From Sphingobacterium multivorum (GTDB taxonomy: Bacteria; Bacteroidota; Bacteroidia; Sphingobacteriales; Sphingobacteriaceae): DNA of 64,000 bases. The translations under genes were made by a program, and so were the position numbers. Under the pieces are notes generated by a model. It saw only the letters and a program-made list of their open reading frames with translations, did not search any database and had not been told where the DNA came from. Positions 8,858-30,769 of this stretch are shown here, in pieces (positions within the stretch are counted from its first letter, which is position 1; the number at the start of each line of letters is the position of its first letter). The DNA is taken from contig NZ_UAUU01000002.1 in the NCBI RefSeq assembly GCF_900457465.1, forward strand, positions 62,001-126,000, in the 5' to 3' direction.

Positions 8858-11800
8858 CTACCTCTCCAAATAACGTTGTGTACTATTCCGAAATTCCTGT
8901 TTAAATTGATCATCCATTAAACGTTTCGCAAATTCCATCTGAAACTTACGCATGGAAAGAGCTACATCATCAAATATCTTCTTATAGGCAAGTTCTCGCG
9001 TATAAGGGTCCAAATTATCTACATACTTTTGCTGGTAATCCGGATGATCTGCGATACGCTGGGTAAATGTCTCGTATACCTGACGCTTATCCTCTGGCGT
9101 TGCTTCCCAATCCGCAAACCAGCGATCATTAAAATCGCGAATAATCTTATCCAAAGCATCGGTCTCATCATCACCATGCGCGCCACGCGGATTGGCATTG
9201 GCAGGATCTAACGTGCTTTCACCCTTGTCAAGTAGTAGCGATTCATTGAGGCGTACACGCTCAATACCATATGTTGACAAATCTACTGCATCCAATAACT
9301 CATCCAACAGTTCATCTTCTTTGCGCTTTATGATCATCTTAGGAATAAGGAATTTTAGGAACCAAAATAGCTTTTCCCAAAACATATTTTCAAAACTGAT
9401 CACCGCAGCCACTTGCCCATACACTTTTACAAAATGCTTAGCCTTGATCTTGAGATCCGCTTTTTGCTCTTCATTTAAATCCAGAGTATTATTAAATCGT
9501 AATGCAGCTTGGTCAATAATAGGGCTCAATTGATCTGCCGGTACACTTTGAAAAAACTTGGTATTGAAAATCTCAACCTCATGCCACTCGTAAATACCGG
9601 AATCATCAAGGCTATCTTTGAGATCATGCAGCACATTGACGTCGGTAGCACCACTCAGGGATGTCGCCGTATAAAATGGATCAAATGCGGCTTTGATATC
9701 AGCACCATCATTGAAGAAATCTAATACAAAAAGATTTTCTGTTTTCTTTCCGTATTTATTGGCTGAACGGTTAAGTCTGGAAAGTGCCTGTACACATAAT
9801 ACGCCCTGCAATTTCTTATCTACATACATTGTGGTCAGCTTGGGCTGATCAAAACCCGTAAGGTATTTATTGGCGACCACAAGGATACGATTGTCATCCT
9901 CGTCAAATTTGTCTTTGGTCTCTGAATCTGGAAATCCATTCAAAGATGCTTCGGTATACTCAATACCATCCACAAGCTTTTTCCCTGAAAACGCAATAAC
10001 AATTTTAAAAGGATTGTCGTATTCTGCTAGTATAAGCTTCAAGGCTTGATAGTAGCGTATAGCCGATTCGATACTCTGCGTAACGACCATCGCCTTCGCT
10101 TTTCCTTTGAGCAGCTTTTTGTAATAAACCTGCTGTAGAAAATGCTGTAGCATAATCCGTGCTTTGGCCTGTATGGTTCGGGGATCACGCTCTACAAAGG
10201 CTTTTAAACGTTTCTGTGCCTTGCTGGTATTGAATTCAGGATTATCCTCAACAGACTTTTGTAATTGGTAGTAGCTGCGGAAGGTGGTATAGTTCGCCAA
10301 TACATCTAAAATAAACCCTTCCTCTATCGCCTGCTTCATTGAATACAGATGAAAGGGCTTAAAAGATCCGTCGGCTTGTTTGGTACCGAAACGCTCTAGC
10401 GTAGCATTTTTAGGTGTTGCTGTGAAAGCAAAATAGGACGCATTTTGACGCATCTTACGAGCTTCCATCGCACGCAGGATTAAATCCTGTGCATCGACCT
10501 CGCCCTCTTCGTTCGTATCCAACTTACCCAAAACCTGATTCATCTTATCCGCTGCTGAGCCACCTTGGCTACTATGCGCTTCGTCGATAATAATAGCAAA
10601 GCGTTTATCGCTCATGTCATCGATATCCTCAAGGATATGTGGGAATTTTTGTATGGTGGTAATAACGATACGCTTTCCGCTTTCGAGAGCCAGTCTCAGA
10701 TCGCTGGAAGAAAATGCTGCACCAATAATATTTTTCACCTCGGAGAAGCTCTTAATGTTATCGCGCAATTGCCGATCCAATACCCTTCTATCAGTAACTA
10801 CGATAACGGAATCGAAAAGCGGCATACCTTGCTGGTCTTCCACTTCGATAAGCTGAAAGGCTGTCCACGTAATGGAATTGGATTTACCAGAACCAGCGGA
10901 ATGTTGTACCAAATAGGTGCTACCAACTCCTTGTTTACGTACATCAGCTATTAACTGTTGCACCACATCCAACTGATGGTACCTCGGAAAGATGTAGAAC
11001 TTCTTACTAAGCGGATCGCTATCTTTACCCTCTAACAGCATAAAATGCTGTATAATGCTAGCCCAGCTTTCTTTGCTAAATGTTTCTTCCCAAAGATAGG
11101 CTGTCCGGTGTCCATTAGGATTTACAGGATTTCCCTTGCCCATATTATCGCCTTTATTAAAGGGCAGGAAGAAGGTGTCCTTTCCTTGAAGTTTGGTTGT
11201 CATATACGCTTCGTCCGTATCAACAGCAAAATGTACTAAACAACGCCCGAACTGCAATAAAGGTTGATTACTATCACGCGTATGTCTATACTGGTGTATT
11301 CCTTGCACCGCGGCAGTCTGGCCGGTCCAGGTATTCTTTAGTTCAATCGTACAAAGTGGTATGCCGTTGACTGTGATGACCATATCAATTTCTTCCCCTG
11401 GATTGAGATTGGAGTAACGCACTTGTCGGGTTACAGCAAATTGATTATGTTCAAAATTATTCTGTACAGCCTGCGCACTGCTAGCACTGGGTGCTTCATA
11501 GAAAAGGGTAAAATGTGCATTATCCACATCTATTCCTTTCTTAAGTACACGCAATACGCCATACTTTTTGACCATACGATCATAACGTTCCAAGATCTTA
11601 AGTTTCCAATCGCCATAGACTTGCAATTTAGCAAGTTCTTTGGCCTGCGTAGCCTGAAGGAAATTCCAAAACCGGTGTGCATCTAATGCATAGCTCTTGT
11701 CGAAATCGAGTGGATCGCCCAGATAGTACCCTTTTCCGGACAGATATTGCCCATATTTATCGTTGGCATCTGCAATGGTTGTCCCCTGCTCTTTCAGATC

Positions 11801-11872
11801 TTCCAATGATGATCCTGTAAGTGCCTTTTCAATAAGGGATTCTAAAGCTTGTTCGTTATATTTTGAGGTCAT
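8858..11872 (-). CDS. hsdR: type I restriction enzyme, R subunit
   Basis: A 1004-residue HsdR. The nuclease domain has a PD-(D/E)xK pattern (EIDMVITVNG, then TIELKN near residue 175). The helicase motor follows: Walker A QHSAGSGKSNS near 325, DEAHSSQGG near 430 and FTATPKNATLE near 490. It translocates and cleaves foreign DNA when complexed with HsdM and HsdS. It is the last restriction gene of the operon hsdM-rhuM-hsdS-GIY-YIG-hsdR and is 50 bp before abiF. The length is normal and no break is seen. Confidence 0.93.
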   Translation of the reverse strand: MTSKYNEQALESLIEKALTGSSLEDLKEQGTTIADANDKYGQYLSGKGYYLGDPLDFDKSYALDAHRFWNFLQATQAKELAKLQVYGDWKLKILERYDRMVKKYGVLRVLKKGIDVDNAHFTLFYEAPSASSAQAVQNNFEHNQFAVTRQVRYSNLNPGEEIDMVITVNGIPLCTIELKNTWTGQTAAVQGIHQYRHTRDSNQPLLQFGRCLVHFAVDTDEAYMTTKLQGKDTFFLPFNKGDNMGKGNPVNPNGHRTAYLWEETFSKESWASIIQHFMLLEGKDSDPLSKKFYIFPRYHQLDVVQQLIADVRKQGVGSTYLVQHSAGSGKSNSITWTAFQLIEVEDQQGMPLFDSVIVVTDRRVLDRQLRDNIKSFSEVKNIIGAAFSSSDLRLALESGKRIVITTIQKFPHILEDIDDMSDKRFAIIIDEAHSSQGGSAADKMNQVLGKLDTNEEGEVDAQDLILRAMEARKMRQNASYFAFTATPKNATLERFGTKQADGSFKPFHLYSMKQAIEEGFILDVLANYTTFRSYYQLQKSVEDNPEFNTSKAQKRLKAFVERDPRTIQAKARIMLQHFLQQVYYKKLLKGKAKAMVVTQSIESAIRYYQALKLILAEYDNPFKIVIAFSGKKLVDGIEYTEASLNGFPDSETKDKFDEDDNRILVVANKYLTGFDQPKLTTMYVDKKLQGVLCVQALSRLNRSANKYGKKTENLFVLDFFNDGADIKAAFDPFYTATSLSGATDVNVLHDLKDSLDDSGIYEWHEVEIFNTKFFQSVPADQLSPIIDQAALRFNNTLDLNEEQKADLKIKAKHFVKVYGQVAAVISFENMFWEKLFWFLKFLIPKMIIKRKEDELLDELLDAVDLSTYGIERVRLNESLLLDKGESTLDPANANPRGAHGDDETDALDKIIRDFNDRWFADWEATPEDKRQVYETFTQRIADHPDYQQKYVDNLDPYTRELAYKKIFDDVALSMRKFQMEFAKRLMDDQFKQEFRNSTQRYLER

Positions 11873-11902
11873 GAATTGAATAGTTATTGGCTAATAAATT
11901 TA

Positions 11903-12700
11903 TTAATCTTTTAAATTAGCAAAAGGTCGCTTTCCGTAATAGCGCGTAAACTCTTTTATCAAATTTGTCTCTACCGTTGTTGGTTCAATACCTTCTATAG
12001 TTTTCCAGCACACAGTGAGTTCTTCGGCCTTTTCCAATTGCCAGATATATCTGCCGCCTTGATGTCCGACGGCCTTTCCTTGGCCAAACTGAAAGTATTG
12101 TATTAACCTTGATCGCAAAGTTGATAGACTGGTAGTTGAACCCGCTTTTCCAACATATACAATGTGACTATTATCTACCCAATTAGCTTTTAATTCATCC
12201 AGCGATACATTAGGATCTTTACCCTTAAAATAACCACCGGAGCCTATTTCCCGAAAAGTGTATTTTTTTGCTGTATTTAATATTATATACACGCCCTGTG
12301 TTTGAGGTATTATTTTATTATTTTGTCTAACATGATTAATAGTAACAAAACCTTGGAAATCAAAATCTTTTAGTTGAGTAATAATATTCTCTGCATGATT
12401 GAGGCTTAACATTTCAAAACTACTTTGTAAAATTGGACTTTTCGCCTTCTCCTTCAACACGGTCTTGATTGGAGCTTGATCTACTAAAGTCGCATCCTTC
12501 GTTTCAATGATCTTGGCCACACGTCTAAAATCATTTACAGTGTAGCCGTTGCCTACGCCGAAATCACTCGCATAAAATCCTAACGTACGAATCTTAGCCC
12601 GAATGCCTTTCTGCTTATCCGAAGATGCATTGCATTTTTGCTCAATGAGCTCCTCAATTGCCAACGCTTCTAGTTTTGTAAAAATAGTTTTCCCCTTCAT
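11903..12700 (-). CDS. GIY-YIG-like nuclease within the restriction operon
   Basis: The C-terminal half shows a GIY-YIG-like signature: QGVYIILN near residue 141, HIVYVGKAGS near 175, an Arg-containing helix LRSRLIQYF, GGRYIWQL and a late acidic residue in TTVETNLIKEF. The first 120 residues are a separate, mostly helical, basic domain that may bind DNA. The gene lies between hsdS and hsdR with about 30-bp gaps on both sides, so it is co-transcribed. It could be an extra nuclease or a regulator of restriction. Cleavage activity is inferred from the motif only. Confidence 0.65.
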   Translation of the reverse strand: MKGKTIFTKLEALAIEELIEQKCNASSDKQKGIRAKIRTLGFYASDFGVGNGYTVNDFRRVAKIIETKDATLVDQAPIKTVLKEKAKSPILQSSFEMLSLNHAENIITQLKDFDFQGFVTINHVRQNNKIIPQTQGVYIILNTAKKYTFREIGSGGYFKGKDPNVSLDELKANWVDNSHIVYVGKAGSTTSLSTLRSRLIQYFQFGQGKAVGHQGGRYIWQLEKAEELTVCWKTIEGIEPTTVETNLIKEFTRYYGKRPFANLKD

Positions 12701-12732
12701 TCAAATTTTGATTTAAAATTGATTAATAAGAA

Positions 12733-14028
12733 CTATCCTGTTACTTTTATCTTTCCTGTTACTACCTCGTTAATTAAACTTTGCTTGTATTCTTTGAGTT
12801 TAACAATCTGTTCTTGCCTTTGACTAATCGCTTTATCAATTTTTGAGGTTTGCTCTTGTAAATGGGTGATTATGGCTTTTTGTTCTGATACAGGAGGAAT
12901 TGGTATCCACAAACAGCCTAAATCAGTAGAATTGATTGCTGGATAACTCATTCCCTTAGATGCAAAACTAACTTGATCGGTAAATACATTACTTCTAACC
13001 ACATTAGCTAAATATTTCGGCGAGACACCATTAGGAGTTAAAATTGCAAAGCCAGTAGAAAAAATAAACTTAGATTTGCTCTCATCAATAAAATCAATTG
13101 CTTTTAAATACGTTCTTACAGTTGAAATAATTGTATCATTCACACTTGCAATTCTTCTTGCTCTTGATGGCGAATTGCCAAATAAATATGATTCAGTTTT
13201 TTCAATTCCATGCGTTAAAGAAACGCTACCTATATCAACATAATCAAGTTCCTGATTTTTATCCGTTGTTTCCGACAATGATTTTTGATTGATTAGACAA
13301 GTATATTTTAACCTCTTCACTTCCCAATCCTCTGGCACTTTCCCAATCCATTCGATTCCTGAATCTTTCATTTGGACAACCTCTCCCTTAGAATGTCGAA
13401 CTCCCTTAGTGACAGCATTGTGGATGGTAATCTGACGGAATTCCTTAAGCTTTTCAATTTGTTGCTCTTTGAAGTGTATAGCTGAATCAATTTTCTCACA
13501 TTTGTCGTCTAGAAATTTAGCGATAGCTTCTTGTTCACTAATTGGAGGAAGAGGATATATTAGATTAGAAAAGTCGTTAAATCTAAAATCAGTACTTCTT
13601 TCTCTAATTCCCTTAGCTAAACTCGAAATTACACCAGCTAAAGCCATTGATCTAAGATAATAAGCATAAAAGTAGTTCGAAACGTTGCTAACTCTTGGTG
13701 AACACACTGAATAAACTGGAGTGGATTTACCATCTGAATCGGAAACACCGATTGCACCAGCGAAAGCATCCATTTGATGGATCACCAAGTCTCCTTTTAA
13801 TACTCCTTGGTAACCAATTTCTTTTAATGAATTGGTGAATCCATCCTCACGTCTATTTTTTCTTAGAGTAACTTCTCCATCTCTAAAACATGTAATAACG
13901 TCGTAATCGGCTAGAACTGGCCTCTCATTTTTAATAAATAACCATTTTCCTTTTTCTGTTTCCCAATTTACAGGAATCTTCCCCAACCAGTCTATCCGGC
14001 TATCTTTATATTTTTCGTATCGCTGCAT
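12733..14028 (-). CDS. hsdS: type I restriction specificity subunit
   Basis: A 431-residue HsdS with two target-recognition domains, each followed by a conserved helix: PLPPISEQEAIAKFLDDKCE (near 158-177) and PIPPVSEQKAIITHLQEQTS (near 375-394). Both repeats start with an IDWLGKIP/IEWIGKVP motif (residues 12 and 225). The subunit reads a bipartite DNA target for methylation and cleavage. It abuts rhuM (1 bp apart) and is intact; the two recognition halves differ, as expected for a bipartite site. Confidence 0.93.
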   Translation of the reverse strand: MQRYEKYKDSRIDWLGKIPVNWETEKGKWLFIKNERPVLADYDVITCFRDGEVTLRKNRREDGFTNSLKEIGYQGVLKGDLVIHQMDAFAGAIGVSDSDGKSTPVYSVCSPRVSNVSNYFYAYYLRSMALAGVISSLAKGIRERSTDFRFNDFSNLIYPLPPISEQEAIAKFLDDKCEKIDSAIHFKEQQIEKLKEFRQITIHNAVTKGVRHSKGEVVQMKDSGIEWIGKVPEDWEVKRLKYTCLINQKSLSETTDKNQELDYVDIGSVSLTHGIEKTESYLFGNSPSRARRIASVNDTIISTVRTYLKAIDFIDESKSKFIFSTGFAILTPNGVSPKYLANVVRSNVFTDQVSFASKGMSYPAINSTDLGCLWIPIPPVSEQKAIITHLQEQTSKIDKAISQRQEQIVKLKEYKQSLINEVVTGKIKVTG

Positions 14029-14029
14029 G

Positions 14030-15028
14030 CTACTTCTTCTTTTTACTTTCTAGACTTTTGGCTGTGGTATCAATGAAGGCGACAAAATCCTTCTCCACTT
14101 TGGATAATTCATTTTTGGTCTTCTCCTTGTACTTAGCATATTCAAGCTCCGCCTTTTTCACTGCTTGATCATGGCTTACTGCTCCGGCATGTTGTAATAC
14201 CTCATTACCCACCATACGTAGAAAATCATCTAGACGCGTAATCCAGTCCTGCATATACATCGGCTTACGATTGAGTGCCTGCAATTCGGCTAACTCCAAA
14301 TAGGCTGTTACCGTACGATTGAGAATATTAAGTTCCTCCTCTGTCAAATAATTTTTAGCAACCTGTATTTCTTGTTTGCTTGGTTGTTCGCCTTTGAAGT
14401 TCGTTAGTCCAAGATTCGGTTTATCGGCATCAATGCGTTTGTAAATAATCTCAGCGGCTGTATTTCCATGCGTAGCAAAATGCATCTTGTTCTGTACAGT
14501 TTTGAAAAAGTGCTGTGAGACCTCCGTCTTAGGGTCGTAATCAATACTCGTGGCATAGATATCCAACACTTTGCGCCAAAAGACTTTTTCGGATGAGCGT
14601 ATATCACGGATGCGAGCCAATAACTCGTCAAAGTAATTGCCTCCTCCAGCTTGCTTCAACAACTCATCATTCATGGTAAAGCCTTTGACGATATATTCGC
14701 GTAAACGCGCCGTAGCCCATTGGCGGAACTTGGTGCCCTGATGACTCTTGACACGGTAGCCTACGGAGATAATGACATCGAGATTGTAATAATTAGTAGG
14801 CTTGGTAGAAAAATCGGAAATTCCGATTTTTCTCTTTACCTCATCCTCAACCAGTTCCTCTTCCTTGAAGATATTAAGCACGTGCTCATTGATTGTGGAC
14901 TTAGATTTTTGGAACAGCTCGCTCATCTGTTCCAATGTCAGCCATACCGTTTCGCCCTCTAAACGTGTCTCGATACGGGTAACACCGTCTTCACTTTGAT
15001 AAATAAGTAGATTACTTTGTGGCTCCAT
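14030..15028 (-). CDS. rhuM: RhuM family protein
   Basis: A 332-residue protein of the RhuM family: the N-terminus has VWLTLEQMSELFQKSKSTIN, a winged-helix/KilA-like DNA-binding start, then YYNLDVIISVGYRVKS and FRQWATARLREYIVKGF. The C-terminal half is helical with a long charged tail. RhuM genes were first described from Salmonella pathogenicity island 3 but occur widely within type I restriction operons. Here it is tightly packed between hsdM and hsdS, so a role tied to restriction-modification is likely. Its biochemical role is unknown. Confidence 0.85.
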   Translation of the reverse strand: MEPQSNLLIYQSEDGVTRIETRLEGETVWLTLEQMSELFQKSKSTINEHVLNIFKEEELVEDEVKRKIGISDFSTKPTNYYNLDVIISVGYRVKSHQGTKFRQWATARLREYIVKGFTMNDELLKQAGGGNYFDELLARIRDIRSSEKVFWRKVLDIYATSIDYDPKTEVSQHFFKTVQNKMHFATHGNTAAEIIYKRIDADKPNLGLTNFKGEQPSKQEIQVAKNYLTEEELNILNRTVTAYLELAELQALNRKPMYMQDWITRLDDFLRMVGNEVLQHAGAVSHDQAVKKAELEYAKYKEKTKNELSKVEKDFVAFIDTTAKSLESKKKK

Positions 15029-15031
15029 AAC

Positions 15032-15757
15032 CTAGAAGTTTAAAATATCTTGCAATAAGCCATCTGCCTGTTCTTCTAATGCCAAGAGATCTGCCTTGAC
15101 TTCTTCGATAGAGCGTAATGGTGTATGCTTATAGAAATATTTGTTGAAGGAGATCTCATAACCGATCTTGACAGAATCCAGATTGATCCAGGCCTCCTCT
15201 ACATGCGGAAGCACCTCACGCTCAAAATAGCTGATAATGGATTCATCCAATGGAATTTGTTCGCTGTCTCGCAGATCACTCTCGGTCTCGTATACGGTAT
15301 ACTCCCCTGCTTTAGCAGTTGCATAATACCCAAACAATGGCAACTGCTCCTCGGAGCAACCTAAATGATTAAGCAATTGGACTTTTTTATCACCCGTAAT
15401 CTTTTCGATCTTTTTGATCACTTTCTCTGCTTCGGCATCGTAAGTGCTTATCGCCGATAAGATCGCTTTCTTTTCCGTAGCAGCAAGGGTAATCTTATGC
15501 TTTTTGCAGGTATCGTCCACCAAACTTGAAAAGGCATTAAAATCCTTAAACTCATTATCGCCAATATGCGACCACAGCACAAGAGCTGCGTCATATAGTG
15601 CTTTGGGTTTATTCCAGGTAGCTGCTTCGATCAGCTTAGCCAACTGCTTTTTGTTGAGTCCCCAATCTTCTTTCTCAGCACGCTGGTTGATCTCTTCGCT
15701 TTTGCTAGCAAGGTCGGTATAAACTAGGTCGCCATAGGTTTCGTACAGGGCCTGCAT
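15032..15757 (-). CDS. hsdM: hsdM C-terminal part, separated by a frameshift
   Basis: These 241 residues match the tail of type I methyltransferase subunits, including SYFEREVLPHVEEAWINLDS and VKIGYEISFNKYFYKH, normally fused to the N6-methyltransferase core. The frame starts at an ATG inside the end of the upstream frame (34-bp overlap). One extra base near 15770 would join them into a single protein of about 780 residues. It could be translated by restart, or the break may be a mutation or sequencing error. Confidence 0.75.
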   Translation of the reverse strand: MQALYETYGDLVYTDLASKSEEINQRAEKEDWGLNKKQLAKLIEAATWNKPKALYDAALVLWSHIGDNEFKDFNAFSSLVDDTCKKHKITLAATEKKAILSAISTYDAEAEKVIKKIEKITGDKKVQLLNHLGCSEEQLPLFGYYATAKAGEYTVYETESDLRDSEQIPLDESIISYFEREVLPHVEEAWINLDSVKIGYEISFNKYFYKHTPLRSIEEVKADLLALEEQADGLLQDILNF

Positions 15758-17370
15758 CGGTACTTGAGGACTTTATCAAAACGTAATTCGTCCAAAGCAA
15801 TTGCTGTAAACTGTGACTTAAGTCTTTTTGGACGTTCGATATTGACTTTATAGTAGCCAAAGTCTGTGTTCTTAAAGCGTTTAACTTGAAGCAGATCATT
15901 CTCCGCGCTCTCGGATCGGTTCTCAAGATAATTTTTAACGATCTCCCCTATCTGTGCTGGTGAAAACTCAGAGTTCTTGCTCCCCAGGTTTTTACGTAAT
16001 TTTTGAAACAGCTTATTGGCATCAAGCAATTGTACATGTCCTTTTCGCGCAGCTGGCTTATTATTGTTTAATAACCAAACATAAGTGGTTATACCCGTGT
16101 TATAGAACAAGTTATTGGGCATCTGAACAATTGCATCCAATAGATCGTTCTCGATAATATACCGACGGATGTTGCTTTCACCAGAACCTGCATCACCTGT
16201 AAAAAGTGATGAGCCGTTGTGCACAGATGCAATACGGCTACCTATCTTATTGGAAGTAGGAGCTTTCATCTTATCCACCATTTCCATCAAGAAAAGGAGC
16301 TGTCCATCGGAACTACGCGGTGTAGCATCTACGGTTTCCCAGTTGCCCCAATAGTCTTTAAGTTTGATCTGAAAACGGGTATCGATAACATCCTTACCAT
16401 CTTTGATGTACTTCTGCTCTGAAGCCCAAGATTTACCATAAGGTGGATTGGACAACATGAAGTCGAACTTCATATCCGAAAACTCATTGGTCGATAATGT
16501 AGAACCGACACGAATATTCTCTGGATCCTTGCCCTTAATCATCATATCGGACTTACAGATGGCATAAGTCTCGTCATTGATCTCCTTACCATACAAGTAG
16601 ACATCCCCTTTATATTTAAAGGCGTCATCTTCGACAAGATAGTTTTCACTTTCGGTAAGCATCCCCCCACTTCCACAGGCAGGGTCATAGATGGTAATAA
16701 TATTGGGTAGATGATCTTTTAAAGGTTCGAAGACCAAGTGGGTCATTAACTGAATGACTTCACGTGGTGTAAAGTGCTCTCCGGCCTCTTCGTTATTCTC
16801 TTCGTTGAATTTGCGGATCAGCTCTTCGAATACATAACCCATTCCCAGGTTGGACAACGCTGGCAATAGACGTCCCTCGGGATCGTTCTTTGTTAGCGGT
16901 GTCAGGTTGATATAAGGAGAAGTAAACTTTTCCAGGACATCCAACAATACATCTTTGGTTGCCATGTGACGTATCTGCGCACGCAGATTAAACTTCTCGA
17001 TAATCTCTTGCACATTGGCAGAAAAGCCAAGCAGATACTCTTCAAAATTAGCCACCAATTTTTGTTGCGAATTGGTCGCTGTGCCTTTGAGCTTCTCCAT
17101 TGTCCACGGTGATGTGTTATAAAACACATACTTGGATGCATGTCTAAGACCATCGGGATCGAGTTCGATCTGGCCTGCATCCTCCCGCTGATAGCGCACT
17201 TCCTCTAGTACCGCATCTTTTGTCGTTTCCAGCAAGGAATCGATACGCCTTAATACAACAAAGGGCAAAATAATATCACGATACTTACCTCGTACATATA
17301 CGTCGCGAAGGCAATCATCGGCAATGGACCAAATAAAACTAACTAATTTATTATGAGCAGTATGAGTCAT
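15724..17370 (-). CDS. hsdM: type I restriction methyltransferase subunit, truncated by a frameshift
   Basis: The methyltransferase core is present: N-terminal helical HsdM domain, SAM-binding DPACGSGGMLTES near residue 230 and the catalytic NPPYG near residue 307. It methylates adenine in the target set by HsdS. The frame ends after LRFDKVLKY with a short unrelated tail (RCRPCTKPMAT), whereas the next frame continues the expected C-terminal domain. It is the first gene of the operon. Whether the split protein works is unclear. Confidence 0.88.
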   Translation of the reverse strand: MTHTAHNKLVSFIWSIADDCLRDVYVRGKYRDIILPFVVLRRIDSLLETTKDAVLEEVRYQREDAGQIELDPDGLRHASKYVFYNTSPWTMEKLKGTATNSQQKLVANFEEYLLGFSANVQEIIEKFNLRAQIRHMATKDVLLDVLEKFTSPYINLTPLTKNDPEGRLLPALSNLGMGYVFEELIRKFNEENNEEAGEHFTPREVIQLMTHLVFEPLKDHLPNIITIYDPACGSGGMLTESENYLVEDDAFKYKGDVYLYGKEINDETYAICKSDMMIKGKDPENIRVGSTLSTNEFSDMKFDFMLSNPPYGKSWASEQKYIKDGKDVIDTRFQIKLKDYWGNWETVDATPRSSDGQLLFLMEMVDKMKAPTSNKIGSRIASVHNGSSLFTGDAGSGESNIRRYIIENDLLDAIVQMPNNLFYNTGITTYVWLLNNNKPAARKGHVQLLDANKLFQKLRKNLGSKNSEFSPAQIGEIVKNYLENRSESAENDLLQVKRFKNTDFGYYKVNIERPKRLKSQFTAIALDELRFDKVLKYRCRPCTKPMAT

Positions 17371-18624: not shown

Positions 18625-18900
18625 TTCATACAGTTTAAATAAGCCAAGCCAATTTATAAAAAAAATCACTCCGATAAAACTATTTCAAATTGGCTATTGT
18701 TCTAACAATACAAAACGGCTACAAGCTGCCTTTCGAAAGAAAGGTTCAACATAAAAATTGGCGTCGCACAGTGAAAATCCAATAGTCTTTAAAAACATTG
18801 GATGACGAAACAAAAAAGAGGAAACGATAGGAAACATAAAAATTGCTGTACAAATAAACGCTAAGAGAAAGGGTCTGATGAGAATCAGGCCCTTTTGACG
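18625..18900 (+). repeat. element R copy 1, candidate structured RNA
   Basis: A 275-bp intergenic element also found at 36113-36230, 44056-44304, 54704-54981 and 57554-57760. It contains a stem CCTTTC-GAAA-GAAAGG, a second stem ATCCAAT/ATTGGAT enclosed by CGTC/GACG, and at the right end AAAGGGTCTGAT-GAGA-ATCAGGCCCTTTT (18868-18896). Stems are kept in other copies while loop lengths vary, and the reading frame across it is not kept, which favours RNA over protein. It directly precedes the terminator of NTF2-like copy 1. Confidence 0.55.
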
Positions 18901-19001: not shown

Positions 19002-19521
19002 TTACTTATACGAATTGATCGATTTGGATACTTTCCAGTCATTGCCCACACGCTCCAAGGTAACGAGGTCAGTCTTGATGAAGTTTTCAAATTTCAAAGT
19101 CACTTTAGCGACCATATAGTCTGCTGATTCTTCTAAGATATCAGTGCTTACTGTACAGTTCAGCTTCTCTCCTTTTTGCTTTTTCAATAGTTTGAGCACT
19201 CCACTACGGCTGTTAGATTGTGCATTAGAAGATTGGATCTTTTGGTTGAAATCTTCAGCGAATAACTGTTCTACTCCTGCTGATTCTCCCTCTGTCGTTA
19301 CCGCAACGTAGTGCTCTAAAGCAAAGTCTGCTGTGGAAAGGTTAACGTTAGCTTTTGTTGCTTTTGCTCCTGGTCCTTCAGCTGCAATAGCGAATGTTGA
19401 TATGGCGATTAAGGCTGCTGCTGCAAATGTTTTTATTAGCGTTTTTTATCGAAATTATTTGTTTTTTATTTGATGATAAAGCTATCATGAGTGTCCTTTG
19501 AATACACTCATGATGGTTCAT
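19002..19521 (-). pseudogene. NTF2-like secreted protein, copy 1, start codon displaced by an insertion
   Basis: The body matches the array family through to KSINSYK, but a roughly 73-bp insertion (19446-19518) separates the original ATG (19519-19521) from the signal-peptide codons and shifts the frame. The insertion carries a perfect 11-bp inverted repeat, ATCATGAGTGT/ACACTCATGAT. Met before AAEGP is Ile here, so no internal ATG rescues it. Distinct residues (GVLKLLKKQ, ILEES) group it with the copy at 48283. Unit boundaries are about 18902-19655. Confidence 0.8.
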
Positions 19522-20409: not shown

Positions 20410-20856
20410 TTATTTATACGAATTGATTGATTTAGATACTTTCCAATCATTACCTACACGCTCCAAGGTAACCAGGTCAGTCTTGGTGAAGTTTTCAAAT
20501 TTCAACGTTACTTTAGCCACCATATAGTCTGCCGATTCCTCGATGATATCTGTGCTTACTGTACAGTTCAGCTTTTCGCCCTTTTGTTTTTTCAAGGATT
20601 TAACCACTTCGCTACGGCTGTTAGACTGCGCATTGGATGCTTGAATCTTTTGATTAAAATCAGCTGCAAATAACTGCTCTACGCCTGCTGATTCTCCCTC
20701 CGTAGTGACCGCAACATAGTGCTCTAAAGCGAAGTCAGCTGTGGAAAGGTTAACGTTTTCTTTTGTTGCTTTTGCTCCAGGTCCTTCAGCTGCCATAGCG
20801 AATGTAGATACTGCGATTAGGGCTGCTGCTGCGAATGTTTTTACTAGCGTTTTCAT
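20410..20856 (-). CDS. secreted NTF2-like protein, array copy 2
   Basis: A 148-residue protein with a signal peptide of about 22 residues (MKTLVKTFAAAALIAVSTFA then MA) and a mature domain whose size and pattern fit the NTF2/SnoaL-like fold: an early helix (LSTADFALEHYVAVTT), a middle helix with LFAADFNQKI, and late strands (VAKVTLKFENF, LVTLERVGNDWKVSKSINSYK region). Such proteins bind small molecules or act as scaffolds; no catalytic residues are clear. It is the right-hand neighbour on the left edge of the nitrous oxide cluster. Unit spans about 20351-20990. Ligand unknown. Confidence 0.8.
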   Translation of the reverse strand: MKTLVKTFAAAALIAVSTFAMAAEGPGAKATKENVNLSTADFALEHYVAVTTEGESAGVEQLFAADFNQKIQASNAQSNSRSEVVKSLKKQKGEKLNCTVSTDIIEESADYMVAKVTLKFENFTKTDLVTLERVGNDWKVSKSINSYK

Positions 20857-21374: not shown

Positions 21375-22637
21375 TTATTTACTTTTTCTTTGATGAAAAA
21401 CTACTTTTCCGACATTGACAACATAAACAGCAGCAAGTGCTGCCCAAAGCCAGGCTGCACAGTATAATGCCCACCTGAATTGACCGGCTACAGCAACCGC
21501 CATGACGACAAGCGCCACTAGGTAAAGATAATATTGTATAGAAAGTAATCGCTGACTATAAAGTTCCTTGGGCAAAGGTATTTTTTTGATGCCATTGAGA
21601 TCTTTATAGCGCCAATTCCAGATCATAAAAGGCAGGGTCTTATAGGTCATCCCTAAAATAATACCCGTTATCCATCCAAAAAACACCCATACGGCATATA
21701 AATTCACCCAATTACCAGACTCCTGCCGGACAACCATAGGTAAGGTGAGAAACGCGAACAATAAACTCAAAAAGGAAATGAAACTATGTTTCATCGGAAT
21801 ATCCAGTACCTTACGAGCCCGGTGCACTAAACAATCCACGACAAAAACGGCCCAGCAAACTACTCCCAATAGCACTATTGCTCCAAAGGTAAGAGATCTT
21901 AATCCCACAGGATGGCTGTATCCGTCCAATAAAAAAAGTACCAATCCAAGGTTTATCAAAATGACCGAAACATAAAGCCACTTTGTTTTGGTGGATTGTC
22001 CCAAGAGAAACATCGGCAGCATCTTCGCTCCCGCTCCCAGGATCAACTGCAAAAACCAACCAACAATACCGACGTGGGCATGTAGCTTTAGGATATCGAG
22101 GTGACTTTTTGTTAGAAAACCATGGGCTAAATTAATGGCAAGCAAAAGGCCTAAGGTGGTTGTAAAACAAAGCCAGAAGGCCGAGAACGTAAAATAAAGG
22201 CGTAGTTCAAATAGATGCTCCACATCTTTAGTCGTCATCCACAGCAAGTAGAAGTACAGGTAGGAGCTGAGCGTAATCAATAGCCCTCCAACGCACATGA
22301 GTAAACCGATCTTGAAATACCAGAAACTATAAATCAACACACAGGTTCCCGATGTCAATAAGATATAACTGAAAAATGCCAATTTGGAAGAGCGAAGTGA
22401 ACGTTCAAAAATAACCGGCACCAGCTGATACGCCGCTCCATAAATCACCATCGTGCCCCAACCTAGTGCTAGGCTATGGACGATTGCCAGCACTTTTGGT
22501 TGAAAATGGTGCCCAAAGAGCTGCCCCCCGCTAAAAACCAAGAGGAAGCTGAACAGTAGAAAAAAAATGCCCGCAGTGATAAAAAACGGCAATACAGCAT
22601 ACGCTTCTGGGCTCTTATGAATAGCAATATGTGCCAT
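21375..22637 (-). CDS. heme-copper oxidase subunit I-like membrane protein
   Basis: A 420-residue protein with about 12 transmembrane helices. His-containing helices such as VLAIVHSLALGWGTMVIYGA (around residues 51-70) and HAHVGIVGWFLQLILGAG resemble the heme-copper oxidase subunit I or NnrS superfamilies. Related genes accompany nos and nor genes in Bacteroidota. It overlaps closely the DUF2249 gene (1-bp gap). It may take part in nitric or nitrous oxide handling or in electron flow. I cannot decide between an NnrS-like and a NorB/cbb3-like protein. Confidence 0.65.
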   Translation of the reverse strand: MAHIAIHKSPEAYAVLPFFITAGIFFLLFSFLLVFSGGQLFGHHFQPKVLAIVHSLALGWGTMVIYGAAYQLVPVIFERSLRSSKLAFFSYILLTSGTCVLIYSFWYFKIGLLMCVGGLLITLSSYLYFYLLWMTTKDVEHLFELRLYFTFSAFWLCFTTTLGLLLAINLAHGFLTKSHLDILKLHAHVGIVGWFLQLILGAGAKMLPMFLLGQSTKTKWLYVSVILINLGLVLFLLDGYSHPVGLRSLTFGAIVLLGVVCWAVFVVDCLVHRARKVLDIPMKHSFISFLSLLFAFLTLPMVVRQESGNWVNLYAVWVFFGWITGIILGMTYKTLPFMIWNWRYKDLNGIKKIPLPKELYSQRLLSIQYYLYLVALVVMAVAVAGQFRWALYCAAWLWAALAAVYVVNVGKVVFHQRKSK

Positions 22638-22638
22638 T

Positions 22639-23466
22639 TTATTTAACGGGGTAAATTAACAGATGGACATCTCCAGGATGTTGTTCATGGATGAAAATCC
22701 GATAAGAAAAATGATCCAGTTCTTCTAGTAAATGGAGCGGAACCTTCCGATGTTTTACATAGACAACCTCATCGGCTTTCAGTTGAGCAAGGGCCTCAAG
22801 AATTGATTCCATGGGCTGCGGCATAGGCAATGTCCTGACATCCAATGTAACAAGTTGAAGCGCGGAAAGTCGCGCTAATTTCTGCTCAAAAAGTCGTTTC
22901 GGCACAAATGAAATATGATCGCCCTCAGCAGGCTGAACGGACAGCACTGTATCTTTTTTATAAAAGTAACTTCTGAATTCGCCCTCCGCCCATTCGTGGC
23001 TATAGCTTGGCACTCCACGCTCCTCCATACGCCTAATCAATGGAATGGGGACAAATGAATTGCTGATGCAAAGAATCCCTCCTGCGACGAGTGAGCGATA
23101 CAACTGAAAAATATCTTTTAATGGATCTTGCCCCATTTCCAATAGGGGTCTCACATCGAATACAACCGTCACTGCTGCATCATCCATCCAACTTGGCCGC
23201 TCTGCTGCATCGAATGGATCATTGACTTTCTCAGCTCCATCTGACATCCAAATAAAGCCGAGCGGTACCAGCGCAGCACGAAAATCTGCAACCGAACATC
23301 CGCCAATTTTTGCTGCTTCGCCTATGGAGACCCGAGGGGCCAGTATCCGACGCAACACCGGGATCCGGATCTTACGCAAGGGTTTGGCAATAGCTGCAAT
23401 GGCTTCAATGCTTAAGTCATTATAGCTGATCAGTTCTGAAATCTTGGTATGCTGGTTTATCCGCAT
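22639..23466 (-). CDS. DUF2249 domain protein
   Basis: A 275-residue soluble protein. The N-terminal 75 residues resemble a DUF1858-like helical domain (IRINQHTKISELI-type start, then IPVLRRILAPRVSIGEAAKI). The rest has two DUF2249-type segments: VVFDVRPLLEMGQDPLKDIF and later LVTLDVRTLPMPQPMESIL, each beginning with the typical D-R-L/P pattern. DUF2249 proteins occur next to nitric-oxide-responsive hemerythrin proteins and denitrification genes. It lies between the RIC gene and the membrane protein in one operon. Confidence 0.75.
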   Translation of the reverse strand: MRINQHTKISELISYNDLSIEAIAAIAKPLRKIRIPVLRRILAPRVSIGEAAKIGGCSVADFRAALVPLGFIWMSDGAEKVNDPFDAAERPSWMDDAAVTVVFDVRPLLEMGQDPLKDIFQLYRSLVAGGILCISNSFVPIPLIRRMEERGVPSYSHEWAEGEFRSYFYKKDTVLSVQPAEGDHISFVPKRLFEQKLARLSALQLVTLDVRTLPMPQPMESILEALAQLKADEVVYVKHRKVPLHLLEELDHFSYRIFIHEQHPGDVHLLIYPVK

Positions 23467-23480
23467 GGCTTTTCTAGTTT

Positions 23481-24407
23481 TTAATTCATTTGAACACCGT
23501 AGCTCGTGAGCAACTTTGGAAATAAAATATTATTCTCCAGGTGGATATGCTGCAAAAGATCGGATTCGAAAGATTCGATCTGTGAAAATAATGACGTGTA
23601 GGAATTGCAGGCATTGGCTGGCAATGTGTAATTTTGGGTAATTTTGCGCAACTGCTGAAGTTCCTTTCCTGAATCTTCGTGTTCGGAAATCAAAAATTGA
23701 ATGAGCTGATCTACCTGTTTGCTGGTCAATTCTTGTTCATTCTTGGTTGCCGGAAAGAGCTGCTTCTCCTCTTTATCCAAATGATGGTAAAGGTCATCAA
23801 GAAAGGCATCGAGTTCTTGGGACAAGTTGACCAGCTCGGGATGCTGCTGTGCATGCACATCGGCCACTTTATGTGCAAGTTCCTGAATAATCGGTCCTTT
23901 TTCCCGGACATACCGATGATGAACATTCTTAATATAATCACTTAAAAAATCGATATCCCAATCTTTAAAATTTAGCGGTGGGCCGGCTATAGGAAGCTCT
24001 TCGGATTGGTTTAACCGTCTGCGCAATTCAATTTCATCGAGACCAACACTATGAGCGGCCTCCTTAAGCGTCTGCTTACCACCGCAACAAAAATCTACCC
24101 CAAGCTGTTTTAAAACTTCGGCCTTGCGGATATCCTTGGCAGCAATATGGCCAACGGTTTCCAGTGTTTCGCTTTCGAGCGGTTTGCCAAGGCGAACCTG
24201 CCAGTATTCGGGCCCCGATTCAAGATAATTCCAAATGAGATCCTTTCCACGTTCACCCAGCAACTGATAATAGAGCGGTTTAGGATCATGATCGTTTTTG
24301 ATAATAAATGACTCGCCCGAATCCAGGGCATCGAAGTGATCAAATATGGTCGGGTGTTTAAGTCGAGGTTCCATATTGAAAACCTCCAATAACGGTGATT
24401 TAATCAT
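23481..24407 (-). CDS. ric: RIC-type di-iron (hemerythrin) protein with N-terminal DUF2249
   Basis: A 308-residue fusion. Residues 10-75 resemble DUF2249 (FDALDSGESFIIKNDHDPKP then YWQVRLGK). Residues 85-135 are the ScdA N-terminal domain with VDFCCGGKQTL. The remainder is a hemerythrin-like domain with His/Glu ligands (YVREKGPIIQELAHK, HHLDKEEKQLFP, EHEDSGKEL, HIHLENNILFP). RIC proteins repair nitric-oxide-damaged iron centres. Standard RIC is about 220-240 residues, so the N-terminal addition is the difference. Confidence 0.85.
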   Translation of the reverse strand: MIKSPLLEVFNMEPRLKHPTIFDHFDALDSGESFIIKNDHDPKPLYYQLLGERGKDLIWNYLESGPEYWQVRLGKPLESETLETVGHIAAKDIRKAEVLKQLGVDFCCGGKQTLKEAAHSVGLDEIELRRRLNQSEELPIAGPPLNFKDWDIDFLSDYIKNVHHRYVREKGPIIQELAHKVADVHAQQHPELVNLSQELDAFLDDLYHHLDKEEKQLFPATKNEQELTSKQVDQLIQFLISEHEDSGKELQQLRKITQNYTLPANACNSYTSLFSQIESFESDLLQHIHLENNILFPKLLTSYGVQMN

Positions 24408-24436
24408 GATAATAGTATTAAATGGTCAATAAATTA

Positions 24437-25204
24437 TTATAAATCCTTTTTCTTAAAATAGCGAATAGATAGCCCTAGAGGAATGAGGCACCAGAGCAAC
24501 ATGACCAACAGGGTGATCGCAATGCCGAATGTATTACCGAAGAAATTCCGAAATATCGCCCCTGTATAGCCCATCATCGCGGAGAGATCGACCTGTAATA
24601 AAATAAGGATGCGACAGATATCGATGGGATTGAGCATGGACAGTGCAACCATTCCATGTTCGATGGGATAATCCGCAAACTGAAATAGGATGAAAAGCAC
24701 CAGTGCGTCAAAAAGCAGCGTGAAATAAAGCCAAAGCAAAATTGCCAATCCTATCCCCTTCGACTTATCTCTGATCAATACAGATGTCCACATCGCGATC
24801 GAAACGAAAATCAAAGAAAGTAACAGTCCGCAACCGACCAAAGTAATTCCCGAAGAGCTAAATGCATAGATAAAAGTTGGTATGCCAACGCCAATAAAAA
24901 AAGCTAAACTAAGTGCACCTGCCAGACCCACATACAGGCTGCCCCAAATGCTTTGCCGTTGCAAAGGCTGACTGACAAGGCAATTGATAAACTCGGAACT
25001 CTGGTAGATATAGATGCCTGAAAAAATGATACTCATCAGCGGAACTACAAACAACACAATATTCAGTAGACTGAGTAATCCCTTTTCATAGTTGTCCTCC
25101 ATGCTATAAACCGTCATGGAAAGTACAAAGAGTAATATGGTGTAGCATAAAATGGTCTTGTTGCGCAAGAGATCCACAAAAACGTAGCGTATAATTTTAT
25201 TCAT
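24437..25204 (-). CDS. nosY: nitrous oxide ABC transporter permease NosY
   Basis: A 255-residue ABC-2 type permease with six hydrophobic segments, directly after nosF (7-bp gap). NosY with NosF and NosD forms the NosDFY complex, which supports assembly of the copper-sulfide centre of NosZ. Position next to nosF and nosD defines the assignment, since ABC-2 permeases alone are hard to tell apart. Confidence 0.88.
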   Translation of the reverse strand: MNKIIRYVFVDLLRNKTILCYTILLFVLSMTVYSMEDNYEKGLLSLLNIVLFVVPLMSIIFSGIYIYQSSEFINCLVSQPLQRQSIWGSLYVGLAGALSLAFFIGVGIPTFIYAFSSSGITLVGCGLLLSLIFVSIAMWTSVLIRDKSKGIGLAILLWLYFTLLFDALVLFILFQFADYPIEHGMVALSMLNPIDICRILILLQVDLSAMMGYTGAIFRNFFGNTFGIAITLLVMLLWCLIPLGLSIRYFKKKDL

Positions 25205-25211
25205 CTTTTCT

Positions 25212-25925
25212 CTAATTAGACAGGTCGCGGTTCTGCATCAAATAAGCGATTGCTTTAGATAGCTTTTCAGTACCTGTATCTTCTTTTAATTGCTGCAAAC
25301 TCTTATGAAACTTCAGCTCTCCTTCCTGCAGAAAGACAATCTGCGATACAAATTCATCGAGATCACTAAGCACATGGGAACTGATGATGATCAGTTTACC
25401 GCGTCCGATTTCTTTTTTGATTTTATCCTTGAGAATTTCGGTAGACAGAGGATCCAGTCCTGCTGTAGGTTCATCCAGGATGAGTACTTTGGGGTCAAAC
25501 ATAAATGCGATACAGGCACTTACTTTTTGTCTTGTGCCACCGGAAAGCGTTGCCATCCGTTTTTCCAACAGCTTGTCCACGCCAAAAGCCTGATAAAGAT
25601 CCGAATCCGCCTGGGGCTGTTTACGGATATCTTTGATCATATCCAGGACCTGTTTGATGGACATATTCTCAGGATATTGACCGATCTGCGGCATATAGCC
25701 GATATGGTTCCGATAAGCCCATTGCTGTCCAATGTCCTGTCCTTCAAAAGTGATCCGTCCGGCACTCGGCATGACCATACCTAGGACAGACTTGATCAAA
25801 GTAGTCTTACCACTGCCATTGGGGCCAATTAAGGCAACGCATTCGCCGCCATTCAAGGTCAGATCAATGCCCTTTAATGCATTGAATTTTCCAAAGCTTT
25901 TCGTTAACTGCTGGATACTAATCAT
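25212..25925 (-). CDS. nosF: nitrous oxide ABC transporter ATPase NosF
   Basis: A 237-residue ABC ATPase with Walker A GPNGSGKTT near residue 34, the signature LSGGTRQKV near 128 and Walker B VLILDEPTAGLDP near 147. It powers NosY. The stop of nosD overlaps its start by 4 bp (25922-25925), indicating translational coupling. Confidence 0.92.
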   Translation of the reverse strand: MISIQQLTKSFGKFNALKGIDLTLNGGECVALIGPNGSGKTTLIKSVLGMVMPSAGRITFEGQDIGQQWAYRNHIGYMPQIGQYPENMSIKQVLDMIKDIRKQPQADSDLYQAFGVDKLLEKRMATLSGGTRQKVSACIAFMFDPKVLILDEPTAGLDPLSTEILKDKIKKEIGRGKLIIISSHVLSDLDEFVSQIVFLQEGELKFHKSLQQLKEDTGTEKLSKAIAYLMQNRDLSN

Positions 25926-27172
25926 ACTTTTATTGATTTCATGCGAGGCTTATCGTCTTTAAGCCCCTCGGGTGTCAGACTTGGTAATAGCTTTTCAGTC
26001 CGGTCGAACAACATGGCCATAAAACTTCGAAAAAGTAACATCGCCGAAGGATAGCGCTCAACCATCATCGAGAATAGGCTTACGGGACGAAAAGGGATAT
26101 CCCCAAATCCGTCTTTGTTCAGATCGTATCCCTCGTATTTGTCCCAATAGTTATGCACAAAGCTGTTGAGTGTAAGGGTACCATTGGTGGCAACATCAAA
26201 GGTATTCTGAAGAAAATTATTGTCTTTAAGCACATTGTCCATACAGCTCGACTGAATCTTGAGCCCCCATCCGTTGCTCTTAAAATTGTTATGTTCAATA
26301 TGGATACGATTCGATCCTTCCATAAAAATACCCGTGGTATTGCGGCTAAACTGATTGTTGATGATCTGACTATCGGAAATATCTTTGAGCAACAATCCAT
26401 AGGCGGCATCGCCCCAATTCTCTTCGAAATTATTGTTTTCCATATGGACATGCTTGGTATACATAACAGCTACACCTGCACCATTGCTGCGAAAGGTGTT
26501 TGAGATGTAACTGTTCTCATGGGAAAACATAAAATGGAGACCATAGCGCAGATTTTTTTCAGAAAGATTGCCCTGTACTCGAGTATGGGTCACAAACTCA
26601 AGATAAATACCGTCCCTATGTCCAGACACTTCATTATTTTCAACACTTAAACTATCTGATTTCCAAGCATGAATACCATTACCAATCAGCTGCTCCGCTG
26701 TACCAAAAGCTTTGAGGATATTGCCCCGTATTTCAACGTTTGTAGCATTCTGCGCATAAATCCCGAAAAAATTGTCCACGAGCTCATTGTCAAAAATTTT
26801 GATATGCGCTGTATTGTAAATTTTAATACCGGCAATATCATTCATGGAAGAATGTCCCGAATGCTGTATTAAAAAGCCTTGAACAGTAACCTGCGGTGAT
26901 TTGATCGAGAGCGGTTCATATTTTTTCTCGCCGTCCAGCACAGGTTTTCCCAGGCCTTTCAGGAAAATTGCCTTATCAATAACAATATTCCCCTCCTTAT
27001 ACACACCCGCCGCTACTAAAACGGTATCACCTGATTTCGCTTGTGCTAAGCCAGCCTTTATTGTTCTGACCGACTGCCCCTTTCCTACCTGGATGGTTTT
27101 CGCCGATACAGGCACGTTTACGAGCCAAAGACAAGCCATTGCACAGTACAACGCTAAAGCTAGATTCTTCAT
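25922..27172 (-). CDS. nosD: NosD periplasmic copper-assembly protein
   Basis: A 416-residue exported protein with signal peptide ending VPVSA. The body is a right-handed beta helix made of repeated strands such as NNIVIDK and IEHNNFKSNGWGL, typical of NosD/carbohydrate-binding parallel helices. It delivers sulfur or copper species for the NosZ CuZ site together with NosFY. It is 10 bp after nosL. Confidence 0.92.
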   Translation of the reverse strand: MKNLALALYCAMACLWLVNVPVSAKTIQVGKGQSVRTIKAGLAQAKSGDTVLVAAGVYKEGNIVIDKAIFLKGLGKPVLDGEKKYEPLSIKSPQVTVQGFLIQHSGHSSMNDIAGIKIYNTAHIKIFDNELVDNFFGIYAQNATNVEIRGNILKAFGTAEQLIGNGIHAWKSDSLSVENNEVSGHRDGIYLEFVTHTRVQGNLSEKNLRYGLHFMFSHENSYISNTFRSNGAGVAVMYTKHVHMENNNFEENWGDAAYGLLLKDISDSQIINNQFSRNTTGIFMEGSNRIHIEHNNFKSNGWGLKIQSSCMDNVLKDNNFLQNTFDVATNGTLTLNSFVHNYWDKYEGYDLNKDGFGDIPFRPVSLFSMMVERYPSAMLLFRSFMAMLFDRTEKLLPSLTPEGLKDDKPRMKSIKV

Positions 27173-27182
27173 TGTTATTCAT

Positions 27183-27632
27183 TTATTTCCACAGATCATT
27201 CCAGGTCATCACCGTGCCACCGATCTCTGCTTTGACCTTATCCAGTTCCACCCGTTTTTCAAATACAGCAACATTGCCTCGCATTGGGCTTTTCAAGGCT
27301 TCACTTTTGAGATAATATGCACCTTCAGCCGGCACGAGCTTATGGCTAACATAATCCGGCAGGTAATAAACGGCAATCTCTTCTTTTTTGACCGAGTTCC
27401 CTTTGACAAAGGCGATCATACATTGTACGTCATCAAAATTAAAGACCCGTCCCTTTTTTGTCTGCAGCTGCGTACCAAAACGCGCGTCCGTTATTGTCAT
27501 CTTACAGTGGGCACATTGCTCGCTACCGTATTTAATAGGCTTGGGTTTATTGTTGCCCTGACAGGCCTGCAAACTACATAGAACCAGCAATATACTACTA
27601 CAGATCAACGCAAATAATTTATAGTTTCTCAT
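27183..27632 (-). CDS. nosL: NosL copper chaperone lipoprotein
   Basis: A 149-residue lipoprotein: signal peptide with lipobox LCSLQAC near residue 24, then EQCAHCKMTITDARFG, the NosL motif with two Cys, and FNFDDVQCMIAF. NosL carries copper to NosZ. The gene overlaps the end of the upstream membrane protein by 14 bp. Confidence 0.92.
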   Translation of the reverse strand: MRNYKLFALICSSILLVLCSLQACQGNNKPKPIKYGSEQCAHCKMTITDARFGTQLQTKKGRVFNFDDVQCMIAFVKGNSVKKEEIAVYYLPDYVSHKLVPAEGAYYLKSEALKSPMRGNVAVFEKRVELDKVKAEIGGTVMTWNDLWK

Positions 27633-28233
27633 ATGATTTTAGTTTTAGGGTTTTATTATTTTGCCACTCCCGCACTGTACAAAAGGCCAAGATAATTCCA
27701 CAGAGTATAAAGATCCATCCCCCGATATCAGGTATAGAATAGGCGCCAAAATTTAAAAGCTGTTTGTATCCGATCAGTGGTGGCTGATAAGACATTCCGG
27801 GAACTTTTATCGGTGCAGATGGATCGAGCTGATGCCCATAGTTGTATTCCCAGATATAAAAGTCAACTAGGGCTGCGACTCCAAAAAGCAGAAAACAAAA
27901 GAATAAGCCATAGAGCAGTTTTCTATTCTGCACGAAACCGGTAAGCAAAAAAGCAAGCGCAAAAAATAAGATGATATAGGGCAAGACCTTAAATTCTATG
28001 AAATCTTCCGCATGTAGCGTTTTCATCCCGATATAGTGGTTCAGTCCATTGATAATATCAACTTGTCCGGCCAACTTGTTGCTATAGATCTGTAGTTCTA
28101 GCCCTTCTGGGTATTGTGCTGCGTCGAGCTCAATACGCCAGATGGGTAGGAAGATGACCGCTACCAGGGCCAGGCCACTCAGGATCAAAAGAATCCGATG
28201 TACTGCTGACAGGTGACTTGTAGTTTTCATCAT
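27619..28233 (-). CDS. conserved membrane protein of the nos cluster
   Basis: A 204-residue protein with about four transmembrane helices, one near the start and three in the second half. It lies between nosZ and nosL, and overlaps nosL. A protein of this type is regularly seen between nosZ and nosL in Bacteroidota clusters. A role in electron transfer or NosZ maturation at the membrane is likely but not shown by any motif here. Confidence 0.7.
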   Translation of the reverse strand: MMKTTSHLSAVHRILLILSGLALVAVIFLPIWRIELDAAQYPEGLELQIYSNKLAGQVDIINGLNHYIGMKTLHAEDFIEFKVLPYIILFFALAFLLTGFVQNRKLLYGLFFCFLLFGVAALVDFYIWEYNYGHQLDPSAPIKVPGMSYQPPLIGYKQLLNFGAYSIPDIGGWIFILCGIILAFCTVREWQNNKTLKLKSYEKL

Positions 28234-28244
28234 TGTAGGTTATA

Positions 28245-30233: not shown

Positions 30234-30292
30234 TCTATTCTTATTTTAAGGTTAATACCTATGCAGCTTTGTTGATTCTTATTCAGCTTTTA

Positions 30293-30769
30293 TTATTTTA
30301 CACCATCATTTTGTCGCATAAACTCCAATACCTTTCGGGCTTCCTCGTCCGTTAGATTTTGGTTAGGCATCCGGACCATGCATAGTTCAAGTTGCGCCTG
30401 TAATTCCGGATCCTTATCGATCATCGGATCAGGATTAGTGATAAAATTCATGATCCACTGTGGTTTTCTCCGTTGTGTCACACCTTTCCATCCTGGCCCG
30501 ACTAGTTTCTCGTCGGTTAGCTTGTGGCAGGAAGCACATTTCAGGTCAACAATCAATTTTCCGGCTGCGGCCATTGGTGCATCCAAATGGTCAGCGATTT
30601 CCACTTTGTCAAATTTTCCCTCACCGCGGTGAGGATCATATCCACTGGCGTCATTTGCCGAAGCCCCAGATTCATTAACACTGTTGGCAACGGTCTTTTT
30701 CTCACCATTGTTTGAGGAACAGGAATAGATAAATAATCCCATCAAACAACATACAATTAGCTTTCTCAT
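30293..30769 (-). CDS. c-type cytochrome lipoprotein of the nos cluster
   Basis: A 158-residue protein with lipoprotein signal (FIYSCSS) and one heme site, CASCHKL near residue 79, with a likely axial Met in CMVRMPNQNL near 133. It is the first gene of the minus-strand nos operon, 60 bp upstream of nosZ, and probably feeds electrons to NosZ. Clade II clusters usually carry such a cytochrome in place of nosR. Confidence 0.9.
   Translation of the reverse strand: MRKLIVCCLMGLFIYSCSSNNGEKKTVANSVNESGASANDASGYDPHRGEGKFDKVEIADHLDAPMAAAGKLIVDLKCASCHKLTDEKLVGPGWKGVTQRRKPQWIMNFITNPDPMIDKDPELQAQLELCMVRMPNQNLTDEEARKVLEFMRQNDGVK

Follow-up and report, generated by a model that had tools for sequence, protein, structure and literature searches.

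Element R is a unit of about 240 nt that occurs five times in the 64,000-nt stretch of Sphingobacterium multivorum DNA analysed here (hereafter the window; feature coordinates refer to it). We read it, with a probability of roughly 0.57, as a multicopy gene for a structured noncoding RNA whose copies also act as recombination joints. Of this reading, the fold on the + strand, the number of copies, their fixed orientation, their location at junctions and the position of the placed junctions at or near the 5' end of the element are shown directly. Judged from its sequence, R is a candidate new family of structured RNA that covaries clearly and has an open loop of unusual conservation. It sits in an array of unrelated genes that is punctuated by copies of R and of an NTF2-like gene.

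The location and the five window copies given in a preliminary description of this DNA were borne out by a family profile and by BLAST matches. The copy studied here, delimited by family-profile and covariance-model matches, is full and lies at 18667–18900. Two other full copies are found at 44072–44321 and 54748–54999, the latter ahead of an NTF2 remnant (55044–55151). The 5' part of the copy at 36088–36248, which precedes an NTF2-like gene, is lost or has diverged, and the copy at 57579–57760 is truncated at its 3' end and lacks the end hairpin. All five are on the + strand. Past the window, the same contig carries four more copies, one of them full, which brings the number to nine inside 66 kb; the ten BLAST matches to R in its own genome are these nine clustered copies and one weak 28-base match far off.

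Folding of 72 copies with RNAalifold yielded hairpin P2; a second hairpin (P3) and an A-rich loop of about 38 nt, both enclosed by the long-range helix P4; and, at the end, hairpin P5, after which comes TTTT. In the studied copy, all on the + strand, these elements begin downstream of two 5' boxes, AAAACTATTT ... TTGTTCTAACAATACAA, recognized by column conservation at 18676–18713. P2 (18728–18745) has a GAAA loop and covaries; P4 (18760–18862) pairs the segments 18760–18764/18858–18862 and 18766–18773/18844–18851, and within it P3 (18777–18803) stands beside the hyper-conserved A-rich loop (18804–18842). P5 with its TTTT (18868–18896) is terminator-like on this strand; it is absent from the terminator-scan output for the region, and its T-run has only four bases. 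The preliminary description had proposed three conserved stems. We count four helices, of which one is long-range and split into two segments. Both hairpins that the description had named, the GAAA-looped one and the GC-rich one at the end, are real, and the one-base change in loop length that it reported is seen in the end loop. For the copy at 44072 the folding energy is −51.2 kcal/mol (z = −4.4), a value matched by none of 200 shuffles; its opposite strand has z = −3.0, with one shuffle in 200 as good.

In an earlier set of fetched loci, the profile gave 149 matches to R, of which 106 were distinct and 74 of these full. Alignment A1 holds 72 of the 74 full copies, and the model alignment A2 holds 28 of those 72. 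Covariation was assessed on 112 copies fitted to the model (matches up to E 1e-15, from 100 loci), 106 of them distinct. Among the 106 distinct aligned copies, 96.0% of helix cells hold standard pairs. Two-sided changes occur in 12 of 38 pairs (shuffled mean 8.3, reached by 3 of 500 shuffles) and in 127 cells (shuffled mean 37.0; none of 500 shuffles reached 127), values to be read with the fact that the shuffles ignore relatedness and that the alignment had been fitted to the model. Structures slid along the alignment are at most 49.1% paired, yet still give 4–9 pairs and 14–50 cells with two-sided change. P2 contributes most of the signal, in six of its seven pairs, and one P5 pair is A-U instead of G-C in 29 rows. 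The copies that show these compensatory changes come from many Sphingobacterium genomes. The aligned copies contain 349 G-U cells versus 65 A-C cells; after removal of three mostly-G-U pairs the figures are 118 versus 65, with 21 of the A-C cells in one column. From this excess of G-U over A-C we take the folded strand to be the + strand of the window. GNRA sequences are frequent both in P2 (46 of its 88 four-base loops) and in P5 (79 of the 100 that were matched), which leans towards RNA, with A-rich composition uncontrolled.

Rfam produced no match at gathering thresholds over the whole window; for two R copies searched individually, the best E values were 0.22 and 0.88, both below gathering. 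Together with the compensatory changes, this supports the earlier suggestion of a candidate novel structured RNA. In the open-licence literature we found no description of R. Pedobacter belongs to the same bacterial family as Sphingobacterium. R resembles the Bacteroidota motifs of Rfam, for example Pedo-repair (RF01715), in being a structured RNA candidate, but none of these motifs is among its Rfam matches up to E 5. We know of no Bacteroidota promoter that the 5' boxes of R match. A search of 2.3 Mb of fetched DNA with a pattern derived from the box pair gave 141 occurrences within R and two outside it, the latter being one place in two overlapping loci. The conserved boxes at 18676–18713, around which the placed junctions fall, are candidates for a promoter-like element or a recombination core.

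The array, as defined against 80 kb of a close relative (G025), is hypervariable; it covers 18600–57760 of the window and continues to about 84750. Just past it, the DNA of this relative is 95.5% identical over 20.7 kb. Inside it, the matches (at least 250 nt, at least 80% identity, same strand) are mainly the R and NTF2 units. Cargo common to both genomes amounts to few pieces, such as 42823–44067 and 51632–52340 and, beyond the window, 67239–68252 and 80370–81046. Judged from these 80 kb of G025, the array turns over fast between close relatives. Some of the cargo is defence- or toxin–antitoxin-like: PADLOC matched five of ten scanned array proteins, namely AbiEi, AbiEii, a DarG-type macrodomain protein, PDC-S43 and the NADAR protein PDC-M42C.

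Several other features of the region were noted. A set of genes resembling an IS66-type transposase set (52382–54589) lies between the cargo at 51654–52367 and the R copy at 54748; in G025, where this insert is lacking, R comes about 100–200 nt after the corresponding cargo. A block of genes resembling nos (nitrous-oxide-reductase) genes lies within the array at 21375–32923, with NTF2-like copies on either side. Past the window there is a direct repeat of 873 nt (62397–63266 and 74039–74904, 91.6% identical) that contains two copies of a gene for a 236-residue protein, SH3-like by resemblance. To the left of the array, ORF translations and sizes point to type I restriction-modification-like genes (8858–17370). 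The NTF2-like genes themselves number 11 near full-length copies at positions 60001–160000 of the contig (C3), and the sole copy scanned against Pfam (20410–20856) matches Lumazine_bd_2. Remnants at 46737–46869 and 55044–55151 represent decay of array units. Four of the 11 copies (19005–19445, 44411–44851, 48286–48726 and 79858–80298) align from residue 2 only, so these may lack the usual start codon.

With the covariance model, R was found in 31 of 93 Sphingobacterium genomes at E ≤ 0.001, in a search whose stricter filters may miss weak matches. The signal is strong in 28 of them, with 2–12 matches each, and weak in three (E 5.9e-5 to 6.0e-4). Among 300 genomes of the order, 23 have R: 22 are Sphingobacterium, and there is one weak match outside the genus. 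The exact R pattern hits 70 stretches in a species-genome collection, 60 of them titled Sphingobacterium. One of the other ten, L173 (titled Massilibacillus), carries a real R; it comes from a sample series that also includes a Sphingobacterium bin and is probably mis-binned. By rough estimate, the remaining matches under other titles are about the number expected by chance. The viral-contig, phage and plasmid collections gave no R matches.

Comparisons between genomes place R at junctions. In S. faecium G009, two R copies flank a gene block whose genes we take, from the look of their sequences, to be DinB, a DnaE2-like polymerase and an SRPBCC protein. Where G009 has two copies, genome G091 has a single chimeric R: it agrees with one G009 copy over its 5' flank and initial part and with the other thereafter, the switch coming just before P2. 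More broadly, among the 5565 pairs formed by 106 copies, comparison of 350-nt flanks showed 111 pairs that share the 5' flank only, 283 the 3' flank only and 33 both; many of the 3'-only sharings run through NTF2 units. Change points were fitted on 63 main-type copies, using pairs whose flank identity reached 90% or more over 150 nt or more, and a position-specific background, chosen because the 5' part of R varies more in general. In nine of 12 one-flank pairs the change of partner falls at or before nt 90 of R and in none within the 3' half, the other three pairs giving no placed change point; in some of the nine a single event is seen through two genomes, and several of the log-likelihood gains are modest (2.6 to 6). 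Two pairs outside these 12 were fitted with a flat background. The pair L112/L147 has its change point at 38; against a placement near the 5' end, the S. faecium-type pair L081/L131 shares the 5' flank and the entire R (change point 232). Five pairs are alike in both flanks; the R body differs in two and is common in three.

Divergence along R was compared by the flank that a pair shares. In columns 0–16, 16–60, 60–130 and 130–234, respectively, unrelated pairs diverge by 0.216, 0.239, 0.121 and 0.067, the 57 main-type pairs that share only the 5' flank by 0.112, 0.196, 0.102 and 0.044, and the 260 main-type pairs that share only the 3' flank by 0.213, 0.224, 0.113 and 0.048. The R copies of the last group are hardly closer than background, which indicates that old NTF2 sharing hardly carries R along and that the case for R travelling with its 3'-side DNA comes from few high-identity pairs. 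Seven other genomes were searched with the peptidase that neighbours a dispersed R in G089; five have orthologues of 84–87% identity and lack R in the 1.5 kb downstream. This comparison gave no clean empty site, the intergenic DNA being unalignable.

The orientation of R relative to replication is constant. All 60 listed copies (of 62 matches) are head-on to the fork, in 11 single-contig genomes, at 18 loci and on both replichores, with fork direction set by taking dnaA as the origin and assuming the terminus opposite; one G089 locus lies too near the assumed terminus for its side to be certain. Neither the copies of one array nor orthologous sites count as independent, and symmetric inversions leave the orientation unchanged, so there are far fewer than 18 independent cases. 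Of 63 loci that span 10 kb or more, 55 have a GC skew that agrees with the head-on orientation, and six of the eight exceptions are near zero. At one dispersed site (L223/L243, in two near-duplicate genomes), local GC skew is clearly opposite to the dnaA-based head-on assignment. The head-on orientation puts the folded strand of R on the leading-strand template. Junctions near the 5' end, combined with constant orientation, are unlike what plain homologous recombination along R would give.

Some readings of R look to its neighbourhood or to a coding function. That R encodes a conserved 20-residue peptide is suggested by a frame in the conserved loop (ATGACGAAACAA...) that begins ATG ACG or ATG ATG in 95 of 112 copies. 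The changes in this frame are nevertheless spread evenly over the codon positions (16, 18 and 18), synonymous excess is absent (10 of 52 minor alleles, for an expected fraction of 0.20) and several copies break the frame; on these grounds we rejected a small ORF, and we regard the peptide as very improbable. The preliminary description was right that four of the five window copies precede what it called an NTF2-like terminator, with the qualification that one of these NTF2 units is the remnant at 55044–55151, and it had proposed an antisense or regulatory link with the array. In the main type, adjacent R and NTF2 are convergent, as with the studied copy and its NTF2-like neighbour (19005–19445, − strand), and the end of R mostly lies 46–92 nt from the NTF2 stop codon. 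Furthermore, of 36 genomes of the genus, the 12 with strong R are the same 12 that have NTF2 copies of at least 54% identity (a thirteenth, G008, has a 25-base R match only), a joint presence that may reflect one clade only. Against an antisense or convergent regulator stands the unlike arrangement between lineages: adjacent NTF2 genes are divergent and on the 5' side of R in S. faecium-type genomes, and 15 of the 26 dispersed-type R loci, covering 12–20 kb each (G062, G063, G089, G091 and G098, with the near duplicates G062 and G063 both counted), have no NTF2 match. The proposed link is not supported by these observations, and regulation of NTF2 by R is unlikely. The link to the array that is seen is positional, R marking junctions of cargo exchange.

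Other readings concern R as DNA. The core boxes of integron attC sites are RYYYAAC/GTTRRRY. R could be a single-stranded-DNA recombination site functionally like attC, whose R-sense strand folds when single-stranded and at whose 5' boxes a recombinase from elsewhere joins cassettes (a gene and then R, on the other strand); we hold this to be possible but doubtful. Like the attC of sedentary chromosomal integrons, R is structured, lies between unrelated cassette genes and, in the main type, follows a gene: in 56 of 63 cases a gene lying up to 400 nt away on the 3' side is directed at R, while the 5' neighbour is unoriented (31 opposite versus 29 same). The placed joints are at the end of R away from that 3' gene, part of the cargo is defence- or toxin–antitoxin-like, and the uniform head-on orientation agrees with PMC11023631, which reports that in sedentary chromosomal integrons the recombinogenic strand of attC stays on the leading-strand template. 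By analogy, attC geometry would fit the main type, with R following a gene, the folding strand being the template strand of that gene and the joints at the far end. Unlike attC, R is about 240 nt long and strongly conserved in primary sequence, many array genes have no R, and no core boxes were seen on inspection of the alignment by eye; its GNRA loops also lean towards RNA. The other type has no bias of the 3' neighbour (19 versus 18), and the copies are not independent. None of the 93 genus genomes has a TIGR02249 integron integrase above cut-off, in a search run without an integron-bearing positive control, and matches below cut-off occur in all 93 as well as in 14 control genomes. The nine tyrosine-recombinase matches of the R-bearing genome include none on C3, its 1.2-Mb contig. 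Given the lack of an integrase above cut-off, the contig free of tyrosine-recombinase matches and the conserved sequence, R is not classed as an integron, though it may work like one even so. A specific form of this idea, argued by analogy and in our view rather doubtful, is an integron-like cassette system without IntI, served in trans by a putative host recombinase. Its 240-nt site would follow a gene, fold on the leading-strand template and recombine at the distal boxes, in an array that carries defence genes. Movement of R as a nonautonomous mobile repeat, either a MITE or REP-type element moved by a Y1 transposase or a retroelement, would account for its multiple copies, its dispersal in the S. 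faecium type and its fixed orientation to replication. Y1 transposase, however, is present in just two of 28 strong R genomes (G021 and G098), reverse transcriptase was not found in nine of 20 R genomes tested, and the plasmid, phage and viral-contig collections hold no R; with the enzymes absent from many R genomes, the Y1/REP and retroelement readings are weakened, and a mobile repeat appears quite unlikely.

The array also invites comparison with the recombinase-associated acquired interbacterial defence (rAID) arrays of Bacteroidales, which are described in PMC12247911 as having a predicted tyrosine recombinase and co-oriented genes. Both are Bacteroidota arrays with short accessory genes and a conserved intergenic sequence. 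In contrast to the rAID arrays described there, the R array has genes in both orientations and no tyrosine recombinase on its contig. R is new as an RNA family; as a system, it is a variant of arrays with conserved intergenic elements.

Returning to R as an RNA gene and joint, we propose that the + strand of the window would yield an RNA of about 190 nt, from just past the conserved 5' boxes through the end hairpin, the boxes starting the transcript and P5 ending it. The copies would at the same time serve as joints for reshuffling the accessory-gene array, with R (and NTF2) repeats presumably recombining by homology. A partner would probably make contact at the hyper-conserved A-rich loop enclosed by P4, and since this open loop is so conserved, the partner of the RNA should be findable. 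R provides an easily recognised marker of a Sphingobacterium gene-swapping hotspot with defence-type genes. Should the DNA itself turn out to be the recombination site, shuffling of the integron kind would occur with no integron integrase, and the rule of orientation to replication known from chromosomal integrons would gain a second case.
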